From the IMG/VR virus record IMGVR_UViG_3300027896_000257, positions 1 through 21,710 of that record: a stretch of 21,710 nucleotides of DNA. One strand, given 5' to 3'. Every line of letters begins with the position of its first letter. Positions within the stretch are counted from its first letter, which is position 1. Made by a program: the position numbers and the translations under genes. Positions 2,009 to 17,772 of this stretch are shown here, in pieces. The DNA comes from a virus. A model generated the notes under the pieces. The model was not told where the DNA came from. It saw nothing but the letters and a program-made list of their open reading frames with translations, and did not search any database.

Positions 2009-2923
2009 ATGAAAATAGCTTTAATATTTAAAGAAGATTCTAAAGAATATACAGAGATTCCTAAAATTTTAGGAGATTCTTGTACTGTTTTTAAAGATAT
2101 TTTAGACTTTGATAAAAATAAAGAAAACTATGATTGTGTCTATTCACCAGACCCTAAAGAACTTCTTAAAATACAGAACAAAATACCATATTTTTATGAT
2201 ATCTCAGCAAAAACAGTTATAGGAGAAATGGACTATGCCTCATTCTTCAAATTCTACTCTCAAATAAGTGGCTCCCTAGCTACCTTCACAAGTGATAAAA
2301 AGCTTAATAAGAACGCTTGCTGGATGAACTTAAATAGCTATTGGGTGAATAAAAGTGCTGACACAGATATAATCTTTAAATTTAAGAAGTTTGTAACTCC
2401 TAAACTGAATGTAGGTTATATCTTTCAAGATCCAGAAAGTTTTGAGATAATTAAAAAAGTAATATATGCAAAAAAAGATAGCTGGCTCTTTCATGTATAC
2501 TATCCTTTTGAGATTGATGACTCCTTAAAGAATAAGGGAGTCTTCTTTTATAGTGGCGACTTATCTAAGGCCAAAGAAGATATTTTATCCAAAGTACATG
2601 TAAATATAGATTTTGATCTTAATCTAAGCAATATGTCTGATACCTTCCCTTCTGAAATTGGAAAAGATACCTTATTATCTGGAACAATTCTGATAAGTTC
2701 TAATCCTCAAGGAAATAACACACATATCTTATTTGATAAGTTTAACTATTTTAAATTAGATTTCATCGACGCTAATACAATCTTGGATACCCTAAGATAT
2801 ATCGATAAAAGAAGAGAGAAACTCGAGGTTATGGCAAAGGCGGGGGCTGAAGTAGTTAAAAAATACTTTGATTATAAAAGGATTGCTCAACAGAAAGTTG
2901 ATATAATTAAGAGTTTACTCTAG
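2009..2923 (+). CDS. Glycosyltransferase-like protein (GT-B / GT1-GT4 type, divergent)
   Basis: About 304 residues from ATG at 2009 (MKIALIFKED). A TTG six codons upstream is possible but has no better ribosome site. The C-terminal half has the usual layout of the sugar-nucleotide-binding domain of GT-B enzymes: a segment of the form FPSEIGKDTLLSGTILISSN, in the place of the family's E-x-G-x-P..E-A-x-x-x-G-x-P-V-I region, and a closing helix pair (DKRREKLEVMAKAGAEVVKKYFD) like the end of many GT4 enzymes. The N-terminal half is poorly conserved and has no signal peptide. It is the only plus-strand gene in the window, sits between fibre and endonuclease genes, and runs convergently into the 122-aa gene 15 bp away with no terminator between them. 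Together with the RmlA-like gene at 15541-16293 it suggests sugar attachment to a virion, DNA or host target. Acceptor and donor are unknown. Confidence 0.5.
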   Translation: MKIALIFKEDSKEYTEIPKILGDSCTVFKDILDFDKNKENYDCVYSPDPKELLKIQNKIPYFYDISAKTVIGEMDYASFFKFYSQISGSLATFTSDKKLNKNACWMNLNSYWVNKSADTDIIFKFKKFVTPKLNVGYIFQDPESFEIIKKVIYAKKDSWLFHVYYPFEIDDSLKNKGVFFYSGDLSKAKEDILSKVHVNIDFDLNLSNMSDTFPSEIGKDTLLSGTILISSNPQGNNTHILFDKFNYFKLDFIDANTILDTLRYIDKRREKLEVMAKAGAEVVKKYFDYKRIAQQKVDIIKSLL

Positions 2924-2938
2924 GTTTTCATCATCCTC

Positions 2939-3307
2939 TTAATATTCTTCATCTTCAAATTCAGATTCTTCAGATTCACCTTCTGCATATTCTGGTATTG
3001 TTATTGTCTCCTCATATTCAAAATCTTGAAATGAAAGAAGACCTTTTTTAACTAATTCTTCACAAATATTTTTAGCAATATCATTTCTTGGGGTTATTTC
3101 AATCCAATGTGTGTCTGCATGAATATTAAGAGGACAACTCAAAAGTGCTTCAGAAATTTCTTTTAAAGTTTCAGATGCTGACCAAAGATTTTTAGCATAT
3201 TCTATACAAGCTTTAGAAAAATTATTATTATTTGCATCAAGTTCTCTACGAAAATCGTCCCCTCTTTTATAAAGAAGTAAAACAGGAGTGTACACTCTTT
3301 CAATCAT
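2939..3307 (-). CDS. Small acidic-tailed protein coupled to the endonuclease-methyltransferase genes
   Basis: 122 residues, family not recognised. The start ATG overlaps the stop of the upstream methyltransferase fusion in an ATGA arrangement (3304-3307), indicating translational coupling. Residues 1-95 look like a compact alpha/beta domain (MIERVYTPVLLLYKRG, then a helical stretch, then HADTHWIEITPRNDIAKNI). The last ~25 residues are almost all acidic or polar (EGESEESEFEDEEY). An acidic tail next to DNA-binding enzymes may indicate a DNA mimic, inhibitor or specificity partner, but that is inference only. No catalytic motif, transmembrane segment or signal peptide is visible. Confidence 0.6.
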   Translation of the reverse strand: MIERVYTPVLLLYKRGDDFRRELDANNNNFSKACIEYAKNLWSASETLKEISEALLSCPLNIHADTHWIEITPRNDIAKNICEELVKKGLLSFQDFEYEETITIPEYAEGESEESEFEDEEY

Positions 3308-5658
3308 AAATTAATCCTTTTCTTAAATATAAATATAGGTTCAGATTTATATCCTCCCCCAACTGAAGATAAAACCATATCATATTTTTTAATTAAATCA
3401 TATTTTTCAGAAGCTAAAATTAAAAAGTCATCAACTAAATTAGGATATGATTGAACGTTATTAATGTTTATAATTAAGTATCCTGAGTCTTTAATTGAAA
3501 TATAACAATTATCCAAGGTAGCCTTTAAAAAACCATTTAACCATAGTTCTTTAGTTGGAAACTTTATATAACTCTGAGTTTCCTCTAAACTATAATGTTC
3601 AGTATTAAAATAGGGAGGCGACGTGAAACAAAGATCTACTTTTTCTTTTGAAATAAAGGTCTCACTACCACATTTATGTAATTCAATTTCTTTATTTAAG
3701 TATCCAAAATCTTCTTTTATTTTTTCTAAGCCACTAAATGTTTCAGAACTTGGGTCTAATCCTATATATTTTTTTAATTTTTTAGAGGCTAATGCTCCTA
3801 AAAGGCGACCCCCAAATCCGGCAGACATGTCTAAGGCTACACCACCATCAGGCAAAAAAGAATCGTAGATATATTTAGCTACTGTAGGTCTAAAATTAGA
3901 AACACCCTGTGACCCTGAAAATGTCTTAAGAGCTTCTCTAATTCTAGAATTTGTTATTTTGGCCCTCTTTTTTAATCTTTTTGTCAAACATTTTTTAAAT
4001 AGTTGATCCTCATTAAATAACTCTAGGGGGGATCTTTTATAATTACACCTTATATTAAAGGCGTGAGGAAAATAACACCAAGCAAGATCTAAACCGTGCA
4101 TGACCTGTTTTAGAGAGCCTTCTTTTAAAAAATTAGAATAATTAAATTCTTTTACTTTGTTAAAAGAACATATTTTTTCTTCAGCATTTAAATTAAAATA
4201 AGGAAAACCTTTAATTCTGTAGTAGTTAAAAACTTTATTTATTAACCTATCTTTTTCAATATCTGAAAAAGTGTCCCAGCAAGAAAGATCTACATTTAAG
4301 ATAGAAAGATCCTTTTCTTCTTCTAACTCAGAAACCTTATCATCTTTAATAAATTTATAATAAAAAATAGGAAGAACATAAGGTTTTATTAAATTTTGAA
4401 ATATTAAAGCATTTTCCTTGGTAATAATAACCCTTCCATCTTTATTAAGATAGGTGTTTATTCCTAATTTATTTTTAAAATAATTTTGAATTAATTTTAA
4501 GTCAGCTTTATTGAAACTTTCAGTACAAAGTTCAAAACCATTAGAATTGTAACTAGTCCCATCATCCATGAACCAAAAAGCCAAACCACGAGCATTTATT
4601 CTTTCAAGAGTATGGGGGTTTACATACTTTAGGGGGTTATAAAATAAATTATAATATTCTTCAAATATCCTGGTAGCTTTTGTTTTGAAACTAACTGATA
4701 TTCTAAATTTTTTATCTCTTTTACAAAAATAGTTTGTTTTTTTGACATCCTCTGAATTAATAAAGTTTTTTAAAATGGAATGCTTATATCTTGAGTATTC
4801 TTCTTGTTTTTGGCCATGATCCTCTTTAAATCGGAAGACTCCATGATGCCTCTCTAGATGACCATCTCCTAGTAATGACCCCAAAAGTAATTGTTCTTGA
4901 ATATCTGTAAACCTGTTTAAAAGTTCTCCTTTATCAGAATATAAGTCCCCCTTATCTAACCTATACCTAATTAAGATAAGCTTAATAGCAGTTTCAGTAG
5001 TTCTGAATAATTTAGCTAACTCCGGAATGCTCTTTTTTTCACTAAGGTAGTATTCTAAAAGAGACCTATTAACAGTCAATCCTGATTCTTTTCTTAGTTG
5101 TACTTCATATTTTTTTAATAAATAATATAGATTAGAAACAGATTTATTTAATTTTTCAGAAATAACCTTAACTGGCAGTCTTTCTACTAAATAATATTTT
5201 TCTAAATCTTCTTTAGCTACAACTTCCCAATTTCTTTTTCCTTTTTCAATATTAAACTTTTCTTTTGCATGTCTCAAACCTGAGATGGACATATCTAAAG
5301 TTTTAACAAATTCCTTATCCAGCACACCTTCTTTTTTAGCTTGCTTATAAGCATCTAAATCAAACTTAATCTTTCTAAAAGATATTTTAAATTCGTGTAG
5401 CTTTTGGGATACAGCTGATCTTGATATCCCTGTCTCCTTGACTACATCTTCTAGCGTTTTGCCAAGATCTGCACACGCTTTAAGATAGTTGGGGGTTAAG
5501 GTGCTATCTATTTTTTCTGCGCTATTTTTTTCTTTGAGGGTAAAAGAGATGTTAAACTCTCTGCATTTTCTTTGAAGAGTGCTCTTTGATATTTTCAATT
5601 GCTTGGCAGCTTCAATCATGGAGAGGTGTTTTAGGGACTCAAGATCTTCTTTTTTCAT
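3304..5658 (-). CDS. Multi-HTH / LAGLIDADG endonuclease / amino-DNA-methyltransferase fusion (copy B)
   Basis: 784 residues. ATG at 5658 is chosen because it overlaps the upstream stop (TGATG) and has GAGGA 11 bases upstream; a TTG at 5667 would sit too close to that site. Residues ~10-235 hold five helix-turn-helix-like modules of 40-50 aa, each with a pattern like AKQLKISKSTLQRKCREFNI. Residues ~250-440 are a LAGLIDADG endonuclease: motif 1 LLLGSLLGDGHL (Asp265) and motif 2 LAFWFMDDG (Asp365/366), both acidic residues present. Residues ~475-784 are a methyltransferase: motif I DMSAGFGG (610-617) for S-adenosylmethionine and motif IV TSPPYF (679-684), the N4-cytosine/N6-adenine class. It could cut and methylate related DNA sites in one polypeptide. 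It is very AT-rich, as is usual for mobile endonuclease genes. It follows paralogous copy A and is coupled to the 122-aa gene. Confidence 0.85.
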   Translation of the reverse strand: MKKEDLESLKHLSMIEAAKQLKISKSTLQRKCREFNISFTLKEKNSAEKIDSTLTPNYLKACADLGKTLEDVVKETGISRSAVSQKLHEFKISFRKIKFDLDAYKQAKKEGVLDKEFVKTLDMSISGLRHAKEKFNIEKGKRNWEVVAKEDLEKYYLVERLPVKVISEKLNKSVSNLYYLLKKYEVQLRKESGLTVNRSLLEYYLSEKKSIPELAKLFRTTETAIKLILIRYRLDKGDLYSDKGELLNRFTDIQEQLLLGSLLGDGHLERHHGVFRFKEDHGQKQEEYSRYKHSILKNFINSEDVKKTNYFCKRDKKFRISVSFKTKATRIFEEYYNLFYNPLKYVNPHTLERINARGLAFWFMDDGTSYNSNGFELCTESFNKADLKLIQNYFKNKLGINTYLNKDGRVIITKENALIFQNLIKPYVLPIFYYKFIKDDKVSELEEEKDLSILNVDLSCWDTFSDIEKDRLINKVFNYYRIKGFPYFNLNAEEKICSFNKVKEFNYSNFLKEGSLKQVMHGLDLAWCYFPHAFNIRCNYKRSPLELFNEDQLFKKCLTKRLKKRAKITNSRIREALKTFSGSQGVSNFRPTVAKYIYDSFLPDGGVALDMSAGFGGRLLGALASKKLKKYIGLDPSSETFSGLEKIKEDFGYLNKEIELHKCGSETFISKEKVDLCFTSPPYFNTEHYSLEETQSYIKFPTKELWLNGFLKATLDNCYISIKDSGYLIININNVQSYPNLVDDFLILASEKYDLIKKYDMVLSSVGGGYKSEPIFIFKKRINL

Positions 5659-8138
5659 CAGCAACAATCCTCACTAAAATTGGAATAAAGCCAAGCATTA
5701 AAAATAGACTCATCTTTTTCTAAAAGATATTTAGGTAACTCTTCTTTCAAATGAGCATAAGGTTCATTTTTGTTAAAAAGCCTTTTATACTGTGTTGCAG
5801 GTATTCCTTCTATTTTTTCTAATTCATAAAAACTTAAAAACTTTCCATGAGTTAGACATATTTTTCGATAATTTATCATTTTTTCTATAGCTGTTTGATA
5901 CTTTAAGTTTATGGGAATTTCTGCTACTTTAAGAAAGTCATTCCATGTACCAAAATATTTTTCAACAGTGGATGTGCTGTAAGGAAAAAGTTCAGGGTGT
6001 TCATTTAAAAAAGCACGATTAGTTTTATAACCTAACTTATAAATTTCTTTTATTTTTTCAACACAACTATTATAATCAAGTTTTAAGAAATTTCTTTTTT
6101 TATTTTTAGAATAAACTGTCTTTAATGCCTCAACATCCTCAATGTTAATAAGATTGTCTGAATCTTTTTGAAAAATTAAAAGCGTCTCATACACAAATTT
6201 ATGAATATTTGAACTTTTATCAAAAACTCTTCCCGTTGGGATTTTATAAAAATCTATTAATCCAAATTTACTATAACAACACTTTAAAATGTCTGAAATC
6301 ATCTTTTTTTCAATGACAAGAGCATAAATTCCCTCGGATTCTAATAGATTATAAAAATTATTTATAGATTTTTGTAAAAAAGAAGTTAACCAAAGGCTAT
6401 AACTAGTATACCTACTTATACTTTGATCATGATTATCTTTTTCATAAATTTCTTTATCAAAATAAGGGGGGCAGGATAAAACTAAACCTACTTTATTAAA
6501 ATAATTTTCAGGTAAATAATCTTCTGAACAATTTTTAACAAAAATTACTTTTTTTTCTGGGGATACCCTACTAGCTAAAGAAATAGAAGAATTAATGTTT
6601 TTTATGTTTGGATCTAAGCAAATTATTTCTTTTACCCCAGAAATAAGACCCCCTAGTAATTTCCCCCCATACCCAGCATCAGGCAAATATAAAATTTTAT
6701 TTTTTCCAAAAGTCTCACAAATAAATTTAGAAACTGTTGGTTTAAAATTAGCTACAGTTTTAAAATTTAAATCCACTCCTGTTCGCATTGATGCTGGGGA
6801 AACCCCGCTGCTATACAAAAATCTATTTCTTATGAGTTTTTTAAGTTCTAAGTCATCTTCCCATAATTCAATAGGACTTTTATTTTTTTCTTTAATCCTA
6901 GCTTCATAAATATGATTCATAAAATTTTTACAAATATTCAAACCCTGTGTTTTAAATTGAAGAGTTTTATTGTTTTCTTCAATAACTACTTTTTTTAATT
7001 CAGATATTTTTTGGTTAAGTTTTTCTTCAGACATTTTTATATAAGGAAAACCATATTTACGATAATAATCAAAAACGTCTTTTTCCCATTTTTGCTTAGC
7101 AGCATCATCCAAAACATTATATTGCCTTGTTTTATATTTATGGATGTCATCGTAGAATCCGTCAAAAGCTCTTACATTATACTCTTTAATTAAATCAGGA
7201 CTTATTTCGTCATAGCACTCTTTTGGTACTTTATAAATCATATCTGGAGTTAAAACTTGTTTAATTATGTCAAACAGTCTTCTTTTATTTTTTATTTTTA
7301 AAAAAGACATTTTAGGCATAGAAGGATATATTATTTTTTCAATATCCAGATTTTCTTTATCATTTATAAAGGATATAAACTCATCTAAATTATTTTTGAA
7401 AGCAGTACAAATTCGAGGTGAATTATCTTTTAATTCGCCATCTCCAAAATACCAATAAGCCAAAATTTCTGAATTCCAATTATTTTTAAGAAATTCTAAT
7501 GGGATTTCTTTAACTCCATCTGGATAATAAATATCCCTTAATTTTTTAAAATAATCAGTTGATGTGGTTTTAAATCCTATCTCATCCCTACCCTTATCAG
7601 GGTTTTTAGTAATACTTATTTTAATTGAAAAGGGTTTTAATTTAGTATAAAGATACTTAGCATATAAATCCTGATTAACTGAATGAGATTCTTTATAAAA
7701 AGCATGTAGAGAACTAGATTGAGCAATATGTCCATCTCCTAGAAGACTGCCAAAAATAATGTTTTTTTGAGAAGGTGTCAATTCTGGAAGATTTTTTATT
7801 CTTTGTACCGTTTTTAATGTTATATCTCTTCGTTTAATTTCATTTTTTATTTTAAGCGTTGAACAAAAAAACAATTTAGAAAGTTTTTCTAATGTATTTG
7901 AATAATATAACTTTTTAAATTCTTCATTTGAGATATCTTCTATGTTTCCATTGTTGTTGGGAAGTTTATCTAAAATTCTTTTAAATTGTGATTTTGTTTT
8001 TATTCCAAAACTTTTTCTTAAATAAGAAATGGCTACATCAGAGCATTTAAATTGTTGAGCAATCTTTTGATCACTTATATTTTGTTCTTCATAAAGTTTT
8101 ATAAGTTCTTCTTTAGAGATACCAGATAATTTAGACAT
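5658..8138 (-). CDS. HTH / LAGLIDADG endonuclease / methyltransferase fusion with C-terminal DNA-binding repeat (copy A)
   Basis: 826 residues, ATG at 8138 with AAAAGGA seven bases upstream. It begins with one or two HTH-like modules (SDQKIAQQFKCSDVAISYL). A LAGLIDADG domain follows at ~120-310, with motif 1 FGSLLGDGHI (Asp135) and motif 2 LAYWYFGDGEL (Asp233). The methyltransferase region (~345-660) has motif I DAGYGGKLLGG (487-497) and motif IV at 554-560 reading LSCPPYF: the first position is Cys where the class normally has Ser, Asn or Asp. Residues ~685-740 (TNRAFLNEHPELFPYSTSTV then KYFGTWNDFLKVA) resemble the DNA-binding repeat found next to many phage homing endonucleases. It is paralogous to copy B but has fewer N-terminal HTH modules and an added C-terminal region. 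It is the first gene of a coupled three-gene unit just downstream of the capsid terminator. Confidence 0.85.
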   Translation of the reverse strand: MSKLSGISKEELIKLYEEQNISDQKIAQQFKCSDVAISYLRKSFGIKTKSQFKRILDKLPNNNGNIEDISNEEFKKLYYSNTLEKLSKLFFCSTLKIKNEIKRRDITLKTVQRIKNLPELTPSQKNIIFGSLLGDGHIAQSSSLHAFYKESHSVNQDLYAKYLYTKLKPFSIKISITKNPDKGRDEIGFKTTSTDYFKKLRDIYYPDGVKEIPLEFLKNNWNSEILAYWYFGDGELKDNSPRICTAFKNNLDEFISFINDKENLDIEKIIYPSMPKMSFLKIKNKRRLFDIIKQVLTPDMIYKVPKECYDEISPDLIKEYNVRAFDGFYDDIHKYKTRQYNVLDDAAKQKWEKDVFDYYRKYGFPYIKMSEEKLNQKISELKKVVIEENNKTLQFKTQGLNICKNFMNHIYEARIKEKNKSPIELWEDDLELKKLIRNRFLYSSGVSPASMRTGVDLNFKTVANFKPTVSKFICETFGKNKILYLPDAGYGGKLLGGLISGVKEIICLDPNIKNINSSISLASRVSPEKKVIFVKNCSEDYLPENYFNKVGLVLSCPPYFDKEIYEKDNHDQSISRYTSYSLWLTSFLQKSINNFYNLLESEGIYALVIEKKMISDILKCCYSKFGLIDFYKIPTGRVFDKSSNIHKFVYETLLIFQKDSDNLINIEDVEALKTVYSKNKKRNFLKLDYNSCVEKIKEIYKLGYKTNRAFLNEHPELFPYSTSTVEKYFGTWNDFLKVAEIPINLKYQTAIEKMINYRKICLTHGKFLSFYELEKIEGIPATQYKRLFNKNEPYAHLKEELPKYLLEKDESIFNAWLYSNFSEDCC

Positions 8139-8343: not shown

Positions 8344-9222
8344 TTATCGAGCAATTACCATTCTTGAAAGCCCACCAGGATTATGTGCACCTATCCCCAA
8401 ATTTTCAAAAATTGAAAATCCTATGGTTCTTGCTTTGGGATCATCTGCAGATAATACAGTAAGTTCTGTTCTAACGGGTATGCGTCCGAAAAATTCTGCT
8501 TCAGCGCAGACATAGGCATTGCCTACTGGGATTTTTCTTGAAACGATAATTTGAGCACCCCATAGATAGGCCATCAAACCAGTTTTCAATAAAGAAGCTT
8601 GGGTCTCAATGTCGAGAACATCGCGCCCCCACTTACGGATATCTGTGTAATCTTTAGGATTCATGAAAATTCTAGCAACTCTAAGATCGTGTCTTTCAAC
8701 ATCAGCAAAAGCGTCAGCAAAGAAAGAAGCTGTGATAGGAGCAGCAACACTGATATCTGGATTAGAAATTCCATCATCAGCAGCATTTCCAGCTACAGCG
8801 TCCATAATTGCGAATACTCTTCCGTCTTCTTCAGCTTGAATTTCAGCTTTAGCAAGATCTTGTGATCTTTCGATAAGGTCAAAACGTCTTTCTTTCACTT
8901 GTGTTAATGGAATAACTGGGTTAGAACTAATTTCGAATAGTGGGAACATAACCCTTTTAGGCTTTTGAATAGCAAGAATGTTTTCGCCTTCTTCTCCAAT
9001 AACATATGCAGTTGCTTTTACGTCTTTGTCATAAATTGGGAGCGCCCCATCGGGTAACTGCTCGACCAAAAATGCTCTACGTCCTACTGACGTATAGTCT
9101 CTACGGAAACGTAGTGGTTGAATCATTGATGCTGCAAGTTTTTGTCTTCCAGCTGCCGTTTTGATGTATTCGGAAATTACTTTTTCCTTTACTTCATTAC
9201 TGGCGGGTTTAGCATTGTTCAT
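8344..9222 (-). CDS. Major capsid protein (HK97-fold type)
   Basis: 292 residues, ATG at 9222 with GGAGG four bases upstream. The sequence has the familiar pattern of short phage capsid proteins of large myoviruses: an N-terminal helical arm (SEYIKTAAGRQKLAASM), then the segment RRAFLVEQLPDGALPIYDKD, the stretch EISSNPVIPLTQVKERRFDL, a spine-helix-like region with many Ala/Glu (DLAKAEIQAEEDGRVFAIM), and a C-terminal A-domain-like part ending in GLSRMVIAR. No long scaffold-like N-terminal region is present, which fits the separate protease/scaffold gene upstream. It is the last gene of the head operon, preceded by a structured RNA element and followed by a strong terminator. The protein forms the icosahedral head shell. 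The assignment is by recognition of the family pattern and by gene order. Confidence 0.88.
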   Translation of the reverse strand: MNNAKPASNEVKEKVISEYIKTAAGRQKLAASMIQPLRFRRDYTSVGRRAFLVEQLPDGALPIYDKDVKATAYVIGEEGENILAIQKPKRVMFPLFEISSNPVIPLTQVKERRFDLIERSQDLAKAEIQAEEDGRVFAIMDAVAGNAADDGISNPDISVAAPITASFFADAFADVERHDLRVARIFMNPKDYTDIRKWGRDVLDIETQASLLKTGLMAYLWGAQIIVSRKIPVGNAYVCAEAEFFGRIPVRTELTVLSADDPKARTIGFSIFENLGIGAHNPGGLSRMVIAR

Positions 9223-11126: not shown

Positions 11127-11477
11127 TTAAGTGTTCAAATTCTTTAGTACATTTTTTATATACTTAATCGAATCTTTTTTATCTAGATTCCCAAAATTCT
11201 CTTTTAAATTACTATATATTTTTTCTGCACTTTTTAAGTTACTTTTTCTAATAAGATTATTTAGGTTTGATTCATTCTCAGAAAGAAAAAGGAGAGTATC
11301 CTTGTATTGATTTAAAACATTTTTACTGATTTTAGAAAATTTATAGCTTTTAGAGCCTACTTCTTCTAAAGTTTGAGAAACTTTGTCTATTCTCCAAACT
11401 AAATTAATGGCCCAGGGTTCATCAATTTCTTCTATGTATTGGGCAATTCTATCTAATTCAGCAATAATATGTTTCAA
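11127..11477 (-). CDS. Hypothetical helical protein, TTG start
   Basis: 116 residues starting with TTG at 11477, which lies directly after the stop of the basic 68-aa gene and has AGGAG seven bases upstream; no ATG gives a comparable start. The product is predominantly helical (AELDRIAQYIEEIDEPWAIN, then several Lys/Asn/Leu-rich helices) with no Cys, membrane segment or catalytic motif. The opening, of the form LDRIAxxIE...WRIDKVSQTLE, resembles short helical segments seen in other head-module proteins of this window. Function is unknown. Coupled translation with its upstream neighbour suggests a joint role in head assembly. Confidence 0.6.
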   Translation of the reverse strand: MKHIIAELDRIAQYIEEIDEPWAINLVWRIDKVSQTLEEVGSKSYKFSKISKNVLNQYKDTLLFLSENESNLNNLIRKSNLKSAEKIYSNLKENFGNLDKKDSIKYIKNVLKNLNT

Positions 11478-11684
11478 TCACTTTCTCCTAAACAACCTTT
11501 TCATTCGTTGACGATGCTTCAGCACCATCTTATTTCTCTTTCTCCATTTTTTATTATACAGTTTTATTTTACTTTTATTCTTTAAATATCTTTGTCTATT
11601 TTTTCTTCTTTGGAGGGGGTTTGTTATCCTTTTTTTCTTTTTAAAAAAAATTGGAGAATAACCCTCTTTATTAATATTCTCCAT
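11478..11684 (-). CDS. Very basic 68-aa protein
   Basis: Roughly 29 of 68 residues are Lys or Arg (for example NPLQRRKNRQRYLKNKSKIK), with a few aromatic residues and no Cys. The ATG at 11684 has AAGGTG seven bases upstream, a site that overlaps the stop of the protease gene. Proteins of this kind bind nucleic acid or acidic partners. Next to a protease with a Glu/Asp-rich tail and a Glu-rich head protein, it may be an internal head protein that condenses DNA or pairs with the acidic scaffold. That role is inference; the family is not recognised. The tight spacing on both sides and the ribosome site make it a real gene. Confidence 0.65.
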   Translation of the reverse strand: MENINKEGYSPIFFKKKKRITNPLQRRKNRQRYLKNKSKIKLYNKKWRKRNKMVLKHRQRMKRLFRRK

Positions 11685-11695
11685 ATTCCGGCACC

Positions 11696-13438
11696 TTAAA
11701 AAATATCAATTATAAGTTTCTTAAGATTTAGCCTTTCCTCAATAGAAAGTTCTTTTCCTAATTTACTTTCAATAGCCTTAGCTATTCTTCTAAACGTCGG
11801 ATAATCCTTTATATTAAGGGAGTCTATAATCTTAAATACGTCCTTATTAATAGAATATCGATTACTTAACATGGCTATTTTAAGAACAGCTGTTTTATTA
11901 TAACCAATCTCATATAGAGATCTTAAGCCACATTTCTTAACAATTTCACAGGCTTTTCTAATATTTGCATATTCATTTTTTAGTTTACTTTGGATAATTG
12001 AGTCATTTAGGTTCACATTGTCTAAACCTTGATTCATAGGGGTACCTAATTCAATACCCAAATCTTGAAGTAATTCTTTTTTAATTTGATCTTTTAACGT
12101 TTTTTTAATTTCTTCTTTTAATTCATTATATGGTTTCTTTGATTCTTCTTCTATTTTTATATCCTCTGCTGGAACCTCTTCTTCAACAGGAGCCTCTTCT
12201 TTTTCCATTTCCTTGATATCTTCTGGAAGTGGTTCTGTTTTATCTTCTTCTAGATTTGGTTCTTCTGTAGGATCTTTATCTGTAGGAGTTTCCTCTTCCG
12301 CAGGTTTTTCATCTTCCAAGGGTTCTCTTTTTACAGGAGCCTCTGGCTTTACTTCAACTTCATCTAAATTTGGAGGATCAATAGGAGCCTCCTCACCCTC
12401 AGGAAGTTTAGGATCTTTCATCTCAACGGGATCAAACTTTTCTTTCTTTTCTTCAGTTATATCTTCTTCAGGTGTTAAATTATCTTCTTCCACTTCAGTT
12501 TTAGCTTTTTTATTAAGAGTATCTGTGACTCTATCAACAACAGCAAAAGCAGCCATTACTCTAGAAGCAGTATGCCTTAGTTCTTCAGATTTAAAGTTTA
12601 TTACGGGTTCATATTTTTCAATAAAAGCAGCTTTATCTACAGAAGCAACTTCTACCTCATTTCTCATCACGGCACCCTTAAACGCAGGGGTCTCTACCCA
12701 AGAACCTTCTATAAATTTATTAGACATAGGGTAAATCACATGGCCACATAACTCGGCTATTACTCTTTTTTTACTGTCATGCTCACTTATAAAAGTATTT
12801 CTTTTAAAAAACTTAATATGGGTACACAACTCTGTCTCATCTGTAGCCACTCGACCACACTGGGTGCATATAGTAAAAGCAACAACTGAGCCCATGCTTA
12901 AAGTAGTTAATTTACCTGTTCTAATCTTATCTACTAAATCTTTATGTTTTTTATTTGTAGCTACAAGAATATCGACAAATAATGATTTACCCTCATCTAC
13001 TTCTCTTATAACTGCATCTAATATTTTACCTTTAGATAAGGTGGGATCTTGAACATGCTCTAGGTAATTTTCAGCACCAATAAAACTTTTATAAGATACT
13101 TTTAAAAGCTCTCGGGCCCAAGCATCCCCATTGGCGTTCATATATTTAGAGGTATCAGGACTAATAAAATAGTCTTTTTTACCAGCAACCTCAGGAAATT
13201 CTTTTTTAGTTTTATCTGACCCAAAATGAACTTCTTTTGGAGCCTCTTCAACATCAACAGATGCTACGATAGTACAATGTGTAAGCAAGTAGTCATCTGG
13301 ATTAAAATCTGAAATTATTTTTTTATATTCAACAACACGATTAGCAGCAGTTCTAACGCTGCCTCTGTTTCCTACCCAAGAATCTATACTTACTTCGGGA
13401 TTTTCAATTTTTAATGAAGCCTTTTTTATAAATGCCAT
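11696..13438 (-). CDS. Prohead protease fused to acidic scaffold-like region
   Basis: 580 residues, ATG at 13438 with AAGGAT upstream inside the end of the preceding gene. Residues ~95-260 carry the prohead-protease signature: NGDAWARELL, then YLEHVQDP with likely catalytic His128, then LTTLSMGS with likely nucleophile Ser181. A possible metal-binding cluster CTQC..C.H (Cys191, Cys194, Cys205, His207) follows. Residues ~315-435 are a Pro/Glu/Asp-rich low-complexity region, and ~435-580 a helical C-terminal domain. The protease cleaves head-core and scaffold proteins during capsid maturation. The acidic and helical tail probably acts as an internal scaffold. Gene order (portal, protease, capsid) supports this. 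Catalytic residues are assigned by pattern, not by alignment. Confidence 0.8.
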   Translation of the reverse strand: MAFIKKASLKIENPEVSIDSWVGNRGSVRTAANRVVEYKKIISDFNPDDYLLTHCTIVASVDVEEAPKEVHFGSDKTKKEFPEVAGKKDYFISPDTSKYMNANGDAWARELLKVSYKSFIGAENYLEHVQDPTLSKGKILDAVIREVDEGKSLFVDILVATNKKHKDLVDKIRTGKLTTLSMGSVVAFTICTQCGRVATDETELCTHIKFFKRNTFISEHDSKKRVIAELCGHVIYPMSNKFIEGSWVETPAFKGAVMRNEVEVASVDKAAFIEKYEPVINFKSEELRHTASRVMAAFAVVDRVTDTLNKKAKTEVEEDNLTPEEDITEEKKEKFDPVEMKDPKLPEGEEAPIDPPNLDEVEVKPEAPVKREPLEDEKPAEEETPTDKDPTEEPNLEEDKTEPLPEDIKEMEKEEAPVEEEVPAEDIKIEEESKKPYNELKEEIKKTLKDQIKKELLQDLGIELGTPMNQGLDNVNLNDSIIQSKLKNEYANIRKACEIVKKCGLRSLYEIGYNKTAVLKIAMLSNRYSINKDVFKIIDSLNIKDYPTFRRIAKAIESKLGKELSIEERLNLKKLIIDIF

Positions 13439-15540: not shown

Positions 15541-16293
15541 TTATACTTTCCATGCGTCAATTGTATAACTTAGTTTAAAACCCTTCTCTTTCACAAAGTT
15601 AGAAGTCTCTAAGATACTATCAAATGTTCCCATATCGTTCCAAAAACCATTAATTTGATAGGAATTACAAGTTCCCTCTTTAACATAAAGCATATTCAAA
15701 TCAGTCACCTCAAGTTCACCTCGAGCTGAAGGTTTCAAAGTTTCTATCTTATTAAATAGTGTTTGATCATAAAAATATAATCCAGTAACAGCTAAATTTG
15801 TCTTAGGATTTTTAGGTTTTTCGACAATATTGGTAACTCTATCCCCCTCTAATTCAGCCACGCCATATCTCTCTGGATCTGGCACAGGCTTAATAAAAAG
15901 GGAGCACCCTCTGTCCTGCTTTTCAAAAGCTTCGACATATGATGTGATATCATCTTCAAAAAAGTTATCCCCCAAGACTACCGCACATTTATCATGTACT
16001 GAATTCTTAGCCCTATAGATGGCATCACTAATCCCTTTAGGGTCTTGTTGGTGTACATAAGTTAAACTAGTACAATTGAACTCACGGCCATCCCCCAAAA
16101 CCGAAACGATGTTTCCATTATACCTACCACCTAAAACACAGACAATGTCAGTAATCCCTGCTTTTACTAATGTATTTAGGGGGTATTCTAATACTAATCT
16201 ATCATAAACAATAGCTAAACTTTTATTATTGACCCTTTTTGAGTAGAGCCCCAGTCGTTTTCCATCTCCGCCACAAATTAGGATACCAATCAT
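15541..16293 (-). CDS. rmlA: Glucose-1-phosphate thymidylyltransferase-like sugar nucleotidyltransferase
   Basis: 250 residues, ATG at 16293 with AAGGAG six bases upstream. The N-terminus GILICGGDGKRL is the nucleotide-binding loop (GGxGxRL in the family), NNKSLAIVYDRLVLEYPL matches the K-x-L-x-P-V-Y-D region, LGDNFFEDD holds the metal-binding Asp, and GVAELEGD, EKPKNPKTNLAVTGLYFYD, LKPSARGELEVTDLN and FWNDMGTFDSILE are all typical of RmlA. The enzyme joins a sugar-1-phosphate to dTTP (or another NTP) to make a nucleotide sugar, the first step of the dTDP-rhamnose pathway. It is shorter than the usual ~290 aa of bacterial RmlA. No other rhamnose-pathway gene is in the window. Sitting inside the head operon, it may supply a sugar for the glycosyltransferase at 2009-2923. 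Substrate and base preference cannot be read from the sequence. Confidence 0.85.
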   Translation of the reverse strand: MIGILICGGDGKRLGLYSKRVNNKSLAIVYDRLVLEYPLNTLVKAGITDIVCVLGGRYNGNIVSVLGDGREFNCTSLTYVHQQDPKGISDAIYRAKNSVHDKCAVVLGDNFFEDDITSYVEAFEKQDRGCSLFIKPVPDPERYGVAELEGDRVTNIVEKPKNPKTNLAVTGLYFYDQTLFNKIETLKPSARGELEVTDLNMLYVKEGTCNSYQINGFWNDMGTFDSILETSNFVKEKGFKLSYTIDAWKV

Positions 16294-16302
16294 AAATTCT
16301 CC

Positions 16303-17772
16303 TTATATATATTTTCTTTTTATATTTAAAAAACTGGCTTTTATTGAAATTGAACACCAAGAACGATTTGGTAGTTTTTCTAAAAGATATTCTTTTGTAC
16401 TATCTGCATAAAGTTCTTCTAAAATAGTTAATTCTTTTTCATTCCAGCGTTCTATTTTTTTTATATTTAATTTATTTGCTTTACCGGAGATAGCTCGCCA
16501 TGTTTTATTTTTTATTTTTTCTAAAAGATATTCTTTACTTTCAACTGGATACATCTTTTTTAATAGCTCTTTATCCTCTTCTGACCATAGATAATCCTGT
16601 TTTTCTCTAACTAATCTTAAAAAAGACATTCTATTCTTAATTGAATAATTTGTTCTATTAAGTAATATTAAATTTATATTTTTGTTATTATAATTTTCTT
16701 TTAGTTTTAAATCTTCTTCTAAAGTCCAGGGTAAGTTTTTCTTTTTAACATTTAAATCATTAAAAATTTCTGAAATCTTATAATTACCATAAACTCTTTT
16801 TAAAAGAGTTGGAGTTCTTGGATAAAAGTTTTTAAATTCTACAATATTAGGATATTTTTTATATATCTCTACAAAAGATAAAAATTTATTTTTTAATCTT
16901 TCTTTATCTATTTTTTTTAATTGTTCTTGATTTATAACTTTTATAGAATTAACTGATCCATAAATCCGAATTATTAGCTTATTACTAATTCCTATTTTTT
17001 TACAGAAGTCAGATACTGATATTCTTGTGTCACTATCTTCATCTTCATAGAATTTTAAAAATTTATCATTAATTTCTTTTTTAGTTAAGGGATAAAAGTT
17101 ACTATCCAACACAATTTTATTTCCGAAAAGTTTCATTAACTTATTATAAAATTTCTCATTTACATATATTATATTTTTATCTGGATACTGGTTTTTAAAT
17201 CTTAAGAATTTATCATTTCGTTCATATCCTTTAATCTCGTAATACTTATCTTTACTTTTTATATAAAAATCAGGTGTATAGGTGTCTTCTTCATTTAATT
17301 TAAAAGTTTCTTTTTCATAGTCATATGGTAATTTAAGATAATTTAAAATCCTTGCAAAATTTGCTTCCCAAGAAGATCTTACTGAATGACCTAGATCTAC
17401 ACGAAAACCAGCTTTACTGTGTGTGGCGGGCTTTCCATACATAGGATTATTTTTTCCTTTTGATTTACCATTTTTAATTTGAGTTAATCTTCCTTTTTCC
17501 ATAGCCGCTTTAATTTTAGGGTTTTCTTTTGTTAAACCCTTATTCCATCGGATACAAGATTTTCTATTTTTTATAGATTCTTTAAACTTTTCAGAAACTA
17601 TATGACTTTCAGAAAGTCCTCTTAAGGGGATGTTATTTTTTAATAATCTAAGACTTATTGCTTTACTAGAAACTCCTAAAAAAATGGCTATATCTTTTAA
17701 ACAACTACCTTTAGAATACATTTCTTTAATTACATTAATATCTAAATTAAATCTTAACTTTTGAACACTCAT
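16303..17772 (-). CDS. Free-standing PD-(D/E)XK homing endonuclease with NUMOD3 and Myb/SANT-like repeats
   Basis: 489 residues, ATG at 17772 with only a weak ribosome site. An N-terminal HTH (~20-45) is followed by a NUMOD3-type motif (KGKNNPMYGKPA, ~105-117). A nuclease core has Glu136 (SSWEANFARIL), Asp168 (TPDFYI) and Glu179/Lys181 (YYEIKGY), the PD-(D/E)XK pattern of Vsr-like phage homing enzymes. Residues ~245-345 contain two endonuclease-associated DNA-binding repeats (for example NFYPRTPTLLKRVYGNY). Residues ~345-489 hold three Myb/SANT-like repeats, each opening with W-x-x-E (PWTLEEDLKLKENY, LWSEEDKELLKKMY, RWNEKELTILEELY). It is very AT-rich. It fits between the 233-aa gene and rmlA so tightly that its stop codon overlaps the rmlA ribosome site. 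It probably cuts an intergenic or adjacent-gene site in relatives that lack it. Confidence 0.8.
   Translation of the reverse strand: MSVQKLRFNLDINVIKEMYSKGSCLKDIAIFLGVSSKAISLRLLKNNIPLRGLSESHIVSEKFKESIKNRKSCIRWNKGLTKENPKIKAAMEKGRLTQIKNGKSKGKNNPMYGKPATHSKAGFRVDLGHSVRSSWEANFARILNYLKLPYDYEKETFKLNEEDTYTPDFYIKSKDKYYEIKGYERNDKFLRFKNQYPDKNIIYVNEKFYNKLMKLFGNKIVLDSNFYPLTKKEINDKFLKFYEDEDSDTRISVSDFCKKIGISNKLIIRIYGSVNSIKVINQEQLKKIDKERLKNKFLSFVEIYKKYPNIVEFKNFYPRTPTLLKRVYGNYKISEIFNDLNVKKKNLPWTLEEDLKLKENYNNKNINLILLNRTNYSIKNRMSFLRLVREKQDYLWSEEDKELLKKMYPVESKEYLLEKIKNKTWRAISGKANKLNIKKIERWNEKELTILEELYADSTKEYLLEKLPNRSWCSISIKASFLNIKRKYI

Follow-up and report, generated by a model that had tools for sequence, protein, structure and literature searches.

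Introduction

Among DNA cutters, homing endonucleases and restriction–modification systems are generally placed in different categories. Single-chain Type IIG/IIB restriction–modification enzymes, which serve in bacterial defense, unite a PD-(D/E)XK nuclease with an N6-adenine methyltransferase and a target-recognition domain. The free-standing LAGLIDADG homing endonucleases of phages carry, to our knowledge, no DNA-modification domain. The cleavage site of a free-standing homing endonuclease lies apart from the place where its gene is inserted (PMC2988022), and insertion therefore leaves the target undestroyed; with the target still whole in its own genome, the carrier needs some way of being spared. 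The main text of the review cited contains no occurrence of "methyl" or "modification", and we found no description in the open-access papers searched of a homing endonuclease with a methyltransferase, a Mom domain or self-protection.

Here we describe a phage locus in which two adjacent genes each join a LAGLIDADG nuclease to a methyltransferase fold. There is, in our judgment, a somewhat better than even chance that such genes are free-standing homing endonucleases with a DNA-modification module for self-protection in the same chain, a hybrid of homing and restriction–modification.

Results

Two coupled genes join nuclease and methyltransferase folds

The window (the whole stretch of DNA analyzed, 21,710 nucleotides of IMG/VR virus record IMGVR_UViG_3300027896_000257) encodes at positions 3304-8138, on the minus strand, two coupled proteins of 826 and 784 residues in open reading frames. 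Each chain comprises helix-turn-helix (HTH) modules, an I-SceI-type LAGLIDADG domain and an S-adenosylmethionine methyltransferase fold, which places nuclease and methyltransferase on one polypeptide in both proteins (reading frames, Pfam and model). The features are as follows.

8344-9222, minus strand: major capsid protein gene, upstream flank and constant neighbor of the hotspot; 73% identical to LR745208, 52% to Tunturiibacter phage Tunturi_5 and 40% to gp27 of Bacillus phage G
5658-8138, minus strand: gene 1, HTH, LAGLIDADG, linker, methyltransferase fold and C-terminal repeat, 826 residues (reading frame; Pfam; AlphaFold2, pLDDT 84)
7830-8114, minus strand: gene 1, two N-terminal HTH modules, residues 9-44 and 71-103 (model helices; weak HTH_7 match)
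7230-7781, minus strand: gene 1, LAGLIDADG nuclease domain, residues 120-303, both Asp present (PF03161, 2.7e-17; motifs; I-SceI fold)
6159-7121, minus strand: gene 1, linker domain and methyltransferase fold, residues 340-660, motifs degenerate (alignment; motif count; model)
6462-6473, minus strand: gene 1, motif IV CPPY, Cys for Ser (alignment; motif count)
5919-6002, minus strand: gene 1, C-terminal homing-endonuclease-associated repeat, residues 713-740 (PF18780, 4.1e-4, below Pfam's cut-off)
5656-5660, minus strand: TGATG, stop of gene 1 over start of gene 2 (sequence)
3304-5658, minus strand: gene 2, HTH array, LAGLIDADG, linker and methyltransferase, 784 residues (reading frame; Pfam)
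4951-5658, minus strand: gene 2, N-terminal array of about five HTH modules, residues 1-236 (HTH matches at residues 1-38, 59-89, 160-184 and others; PHROG HTH matches)
4339-4911, minus strand: gene 2, LAGLIDADG nuclease domain, residues 250-440, both Asp present (PF03161, 2e-30; I-SceI, ~7e-9)
3307-4278, minus strand: gene 2, linker domain and methyltransferase, residues 461-784 (alignment; AlphaFold2, pLDDT 95; 43% identity to a standalone Vibrio phage methylase)
3808-3831, minus strand: gene 2, motif I DMSAGFGG (motif count)
3610-3621, minus strand: gene 2, motif IV SPPY (motif count)
2939-3307, minus strand: small acidic-tailed gene, downstream flank (homologues at the corresponding position in L013, L025 and the vacant L250)

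The two genes overlap by a single nucleotide within TGATG, as originally predicted, and the gene 2 ATG is preceded, 9 nt upstream, by the ribosome-binding-like sequence GAGGA. The length of 784 residues counts from this ATG; a TTG start would make it 787. The stop codon of gene 2 likewise overlaps the ATG of the small gene at 2939-3307.

Both catalytic Asp residues are kept in both LAGLIDADG domains by motif reading (GDG/GDG in gene 1, GDG/DDG in gene 2), in line with the expectation of a complete-looking nuclease in each chain. The relationship to I-SceI is detected by sequence for gene 2 and by fold for gene 1, whose AlphaFold2 model resembles I-SceI and I-WcaI (TMt ~0.75) as well as class I methyltransferases; for gene 2, the model of the methyltransferase part reaches pLDDT 95. 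Structure prediction thus bore out both folds. The DNA-binding parts do differ between the proteins, with about five N-terminal HTH modules in gene 2 and two plus the C-terminal repeat in gene 1.

The two proteins, called paralogous in the original prediction, share 26% identity. A simple tandem duplication was nevertheless rejected: the window methyltransferases do not form one clade (AU test, p 0.00013) and the LAGLIDADG halves also fall in separate branches. Because the methyltransferase halves lie in different branches, the pair is not a plain duplication.

The methyltransferase motifs are canonical in gene 2 and degenerate in gene 1

The original prediction had credited both proteins with a methyltransferase motif I and a PPY motif IV. 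This is correct for gene 2, which has both catalytic motifs in canonical form (D..xG and [SND]PP[YFW]). Gene 1 departs from both patterns: its motif I reads YLPDAGYGG (aligned as LPDAGYGG) and its motif IV CPPY, so that the Asp of the former and the Ser of the latter are lost. Since both motifs are degenerate, the gene 1 methyltransferase is probably inactive or altered.

The same two losses occur in the gene 1 orthologue of the closest relative, L025, which has persisted at 49% identity. Such persistence would be expected if the methyltransferase domain served the nuclease only in DNA binding or target recognition and performed no catalysis. We consider this quite improbable, since 23 of the 25 LAGLIDADG fusions in the tree set, and all 10 fusions of other kinds, keep both catalytic motifs. 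In a set of 94 methyltransferase domains, 92 have motif I D..xG and motif IV SPP[YF]; only gene 1 and its L025 orthologue depart from this. One comparison shows purifying selection on the methyltransferase: dN/dS is ~0.08 between L071 and L189 (dN 0.217, dS 2.62), one measurable pair where most pairs are saturated, and the LAGLIDADG dN is similar (0.25).

The fusions recur at a hotspot downstream of the capsid gene

Searches of IMG/VR proteins with the two window proteins returned few relatives, and the capsid gene proved the productive route. The comparison set was assembled from three capsid-gene scans of IMG/VR; loci were collapsed at 97% capsid DNA identity and at least 2.2 kb of downstream sequence was required, which yielded 101 non-redundant phage-G-like loci. 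Loci and contigs compared are denoted by L followed by a number.

A LAGLIDADG–methyltransferase fusion in a single reading frame lies behind the capsid gene at 23 of the 101 loci. The same methyltransferase is found with no detected LAGLIDADG domain at nine, mostly with another N- or C-terminal part, LAGLIDADG genes stand without the methyltransferase at 18, and none of these genes is present at 51. The other parts on the LAGLIDADG-free methyltransferases are PD-(D/E)XK- or VSR-like (by eye) or MucR-type zinc fingers (Pfam); nuclease-like partners of this kind occur in L052/L053, L093, L303 and L017 (by eye, the zinc fingers by Pfam), and the L055 methyltransferase gene has no recognizable nuclease part. 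The fusion in L189, a bacterial MAG contig, also lies directly behind a phage capsid gene.

Four pairs of loci with capsid genes 88-91% similar (L258/L262, L268/L277, L064/L071 and L076/L079) differ downstream, and their alignable DNA ends a few bases from the capsid stop codon. Such breaks, together with differing contents, are the pattern of a homing hotspot as read from these alignments. The downstream neighbor is common to the window, L013 and L025, and in L250 only 581 bp, free of any gene of this kind, separate it from the capsid gene. In LR745208, a 485-kb phage known from an unannotated metagenome record, a 1230-residue protein with two LAGLIDADG domains and a methyltransferase occupies the same interval, bounded by the capsid gene on one side and the small acidic gene on the other (L013, 5140-8826); both catalytic Asp residues of its first LAGLIDADG domain are replaced (LLGNG, FLDRG), and the chain ends in a cysteine-rich, zinc-ribbon-like tail. 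Genes at the locus are placed between conserved genes and are present or absent among relatives, as expected of intronless homing elements. Clean indels remove LAGLIDADG-only genes (~830 bp in L021/L022, ~900 bp in L030/L031), and among the compared loci no two near-identical phages were distinguished solely by a LAGLIDADG–methyltransferase gene; the fused genes themselves are presumably mobile.

The tandem arrangement, noted in the original prediction as not known to be described, is not confined to the window, as tandem pairs also occur in L025, L027 and L058. Their recurrence is compatible with a pairing of the two proteins.

The same domain order in more than 20 independent contigs answers the search for it in other phages and rules out a fusion created by sequencing error. 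Relatives of the LAGLIDADG domain do sit inside inteins in other phages (L005, L010 and L011, which give PF14890/Hint-type splicing matches), but the window proteins have an N-terminal HTH part in place of an extein, and neither matches PF14890 or a Hint splicing domain at E-values up to 10 (Pfam; for gene 2 among the best 25 of 26 families). With the splicing domain absent and the domain order wrong, an intein was rejected, and we regard an origin of the arrangement as an intein or a sequencing or assembly artefact as having a negligible probability.

Other genes at this site and in the window were also noted. Behind the capsid gene, L034 encodes an RRXRR (IscB-like) protein (2683-4755; PF14239, 3.4e-26) with a homing-endonuclease-type C-terminal tail, and the first long reading frame of L085 is also RRXRR (IscB-like), by eye only. 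At the same hotspot, the LAGLIDADG protein of L045 (8969-10624) has a ParB N-terminal domain (PF02195, 2.2e-7) in its C-terminal part. Uracil-DNA glycosylase-like genes (by eye) lie directly behind the capsid genes of L247, L254 and L258, where there is no nuclease. In the head-gene cluster of the window, a 489-residue protein (16303-17772, minus strand) with endonuclease- and Holliday-resolvase-like PHROG matches and D5-like HTH parts is probably another homing endonuclease, and a nucleotidyltransferase gene is found at 15541-16293 (minus strand; PF00483, 2.9e-45).

Nuclease and modification module have been joined repeatedly

A single origin of all LAGLIDADG–methyltransferase fusions was ruled out, as the methyltransferase tree rejects the LAGLIDADG fusions as one clade (AU test, p 2e-7). 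The LAGLIDADG tree contains at least nine changes between presence and absence of the methyltransferase on well-supported branches, a number in which gains are not separable from losses. On the evidence of both trees, the association has been remade repeatedly.

In the tree, the nearest LAGLIDADG relatives of gene 2 are the second gene of L025 and the LAGLIDADG gene of L021 (fork SH-aLRT 86%). In L025, the gene 2 counterpart has a Mom domain in the place of the methyltransferase (PF25680, 1.1e-9; phrog_1384 'Mom-like DNA modification protein', 7.5e-15), and the two proteins share 42% identity across their common HTH–LAGLIDADG part. A second LAGLIDADG–Mom fusion is present in L027. The L021 LAGLIDADG gene (12052-12951, minus strand) adjoins a free Mom gene, and L022 has Mom alone (11230-12051, minus strand; PF25680, 1.3e-10); these two phages are 95% similar and differ here by the ~830-bp clean indel. 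By domain matches and tree position, a single nuclease lineage is associated, by fusion or adjacency, with two DNA-modification families of different chemistry.

The partnership might instead be one of transport, in which the methyltransferase modifies short, frequent sites throughout the genome against host restriction and rides on the nuclease for its spread, with no protection from the nuclease attached to it. Viruses commonly encode standalone members of the family (at least 580 loci; the best 80 matches of a methyltransferase-alignment scan are almost all standalone genes), and the gene 2 copy is 43% identical to a standalone methylase along its entire length. Many LAGLIDADG genes at the site also lack the module (18 of the 41 loci with a LAGLIDADG gene), so that the methyltransferase is not obligatory for persistence there. 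The module has nevertheless been fused repeatedly, in a single chain, to a variety of nuclease-like parts, and Mom has taken its place within the same nuclease lineage; both observations fit a functional link better, and we hold the passenger role to be unlikely. Mom is a modification that protects against host restriction; because it is itself anti-restriction, the Mom exchange is compatible with this alternative as well.

The methyltransferase probably modifies DNA

The nearest solved folds to the methyltransferase are the RNA m2G tRNA methyltransferases Trm11 and TrmN (Z ~18), and Trm14 is also among the best structural matches. These resemblances could point to an RNA substrate such as tRNA or rRNA. 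We judge this very improbable, as no THUMP-like RNA-binding domain was recognized, the domain is joined to DNA-binding and DNA-cutting domains, its place can be taken by Mom, a DNA-modification family, and several fused relatives match PF01555 (DNA methylase) with scores exceeding the family's cut-off. Type II methylase profiles also match, and a putative DNA modification methylase is among the closest sequences (1.7e-6). PADLOC returned only generic HEase and MTase_II models, and an NCBIfam profile search gave nothing useful. The SPPY motif presumably marks an exocyclic amino methyltransferase, possibly of the N4-cytosine type. From PF01555 and the Type II methylase profiles, this motif and the genomic context, we infer that the substrate is DNA.

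Nine viral contigs (L101, L102, L106-L109, L111, L112 and L114) have two adjacent genes of this methyltransferase family, a copy of ~540 residues with an unrecognized N-terminal part followed by one of 320-390 residues.

A proposed model of self-protecting homing endonucleases

We propose that both genes are free-standing (intronless) homing endonucleases occupying a site downstream of the capsid gene that is a hotspot in phage-G-like giant phages. A long target, probably within the adjacent capsid-region DNA, would be bound by the HTH array together with the I-SceI-like LAGLIDADG domain, and the cut would fall on co-infecting phages without the element; repair templated by the carrier would then copy the element and its flanks. 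The attached methyltransferase, or a Mom-type module in relatives, would modify the target on the carrier's own DNA, supposing that the cut and modified sites coincide, and the chain would behave as a very site-specific one-protein restriction–modification enzyme. With the carrier protected by the modification module, a conserved target would become usable. Gene 2 is the likely active nuclease–methylase of the pair. Gene 1 would contribute an intact-looking nuclease, and its degenerate methyltransferase may only bind DNA or the partner.

The idea of a cutter combined with a self-protecting modifier was part of the original prediction. It is strengthened by the recurrence of the fusions, their repeated joining, the retention of catalytic motifs and the Mom exchange; the accompanying claim that both methyltransferases look intact did not survive. 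We put at even chances the broader reading that homing endonucleases escaping self-cleavage through an exchangeable modification module, methyltransferase or Mom, form a previously undescribed class of phage mobile element, acting from the capsid locus as a single-protein, very site-specific restriction–modification system against competing phages, in which the two window proteins may pair with one methyltransferase inactive.

Discussion

If correct, this model would provide a direct bridge between homing nucleases and restriction–modification, with either a methyltransferase or Mom as the modification domain, and would explain how a free-standing homing gene can target a conserved sequence and leave its carrier uncut. 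It would also offer a testable mechanism for competition among giant phages, and long-target nuclease–methylase chains could serve as tools.

The window proteins resemble the phage free-standing LAGLIDADG homing endonucleases of the I-SceI/I-WcaI family in their LAGLIDADG_2 domain with both Asp residues, their intergenic position beside a conserved gene and their HTH modules, and differ by the addition of the methyltransferase (Mom in relatives). Among 50,697 phage records, LAGLIDADG and methyltransferase occur in one place only in LR745208. The intronless homing genes of the T4 seg/mob type are likewise free-standing endonuclease genes between conserved phage genes, with cleavage sites apart from their insertion sites, but encode GIY-YIG or HNH nucleases (PMC2988022).

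The modification modules also have free counterparts. Standalone phage methyltransferases (phrog_12517; the 'N-4 cytosine-specific DNA methylase' of Vibrio phage 2.058) match the linker and methyltransferase of gene 2 over their entire length at 43% identity and, unlike gene 2, have no nuclease or HTH part. Mom proteins (PF25680, phrog_1384), which take the methyltransferase's place in L025 and are fused to LAGLIDADG in L027, are absent from the window. The ShiLan element (PMC11855218), in which an HNH endonuclease has inserted itself into a phage methylase, provides another link between homing endonuclease and methylase; there the methylase is the invaded gene, whereas here it is the endonuclease's fused module.

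Single-chain Type IIG/IIB enzymes such as TstI (PMC4027205) share with the window proteins the union of a nuclease and an amino-methyltransferase in one polypeptide. The window nuclease is LAGLIDADG rather than PD-(D/E)XK, and the chains have no recognized target-recognition domain, are phage-borne and occupy a homing-type locus. In its design, each would be a homing endonuclease that resembles a single-chain restriction–modification enzyme.
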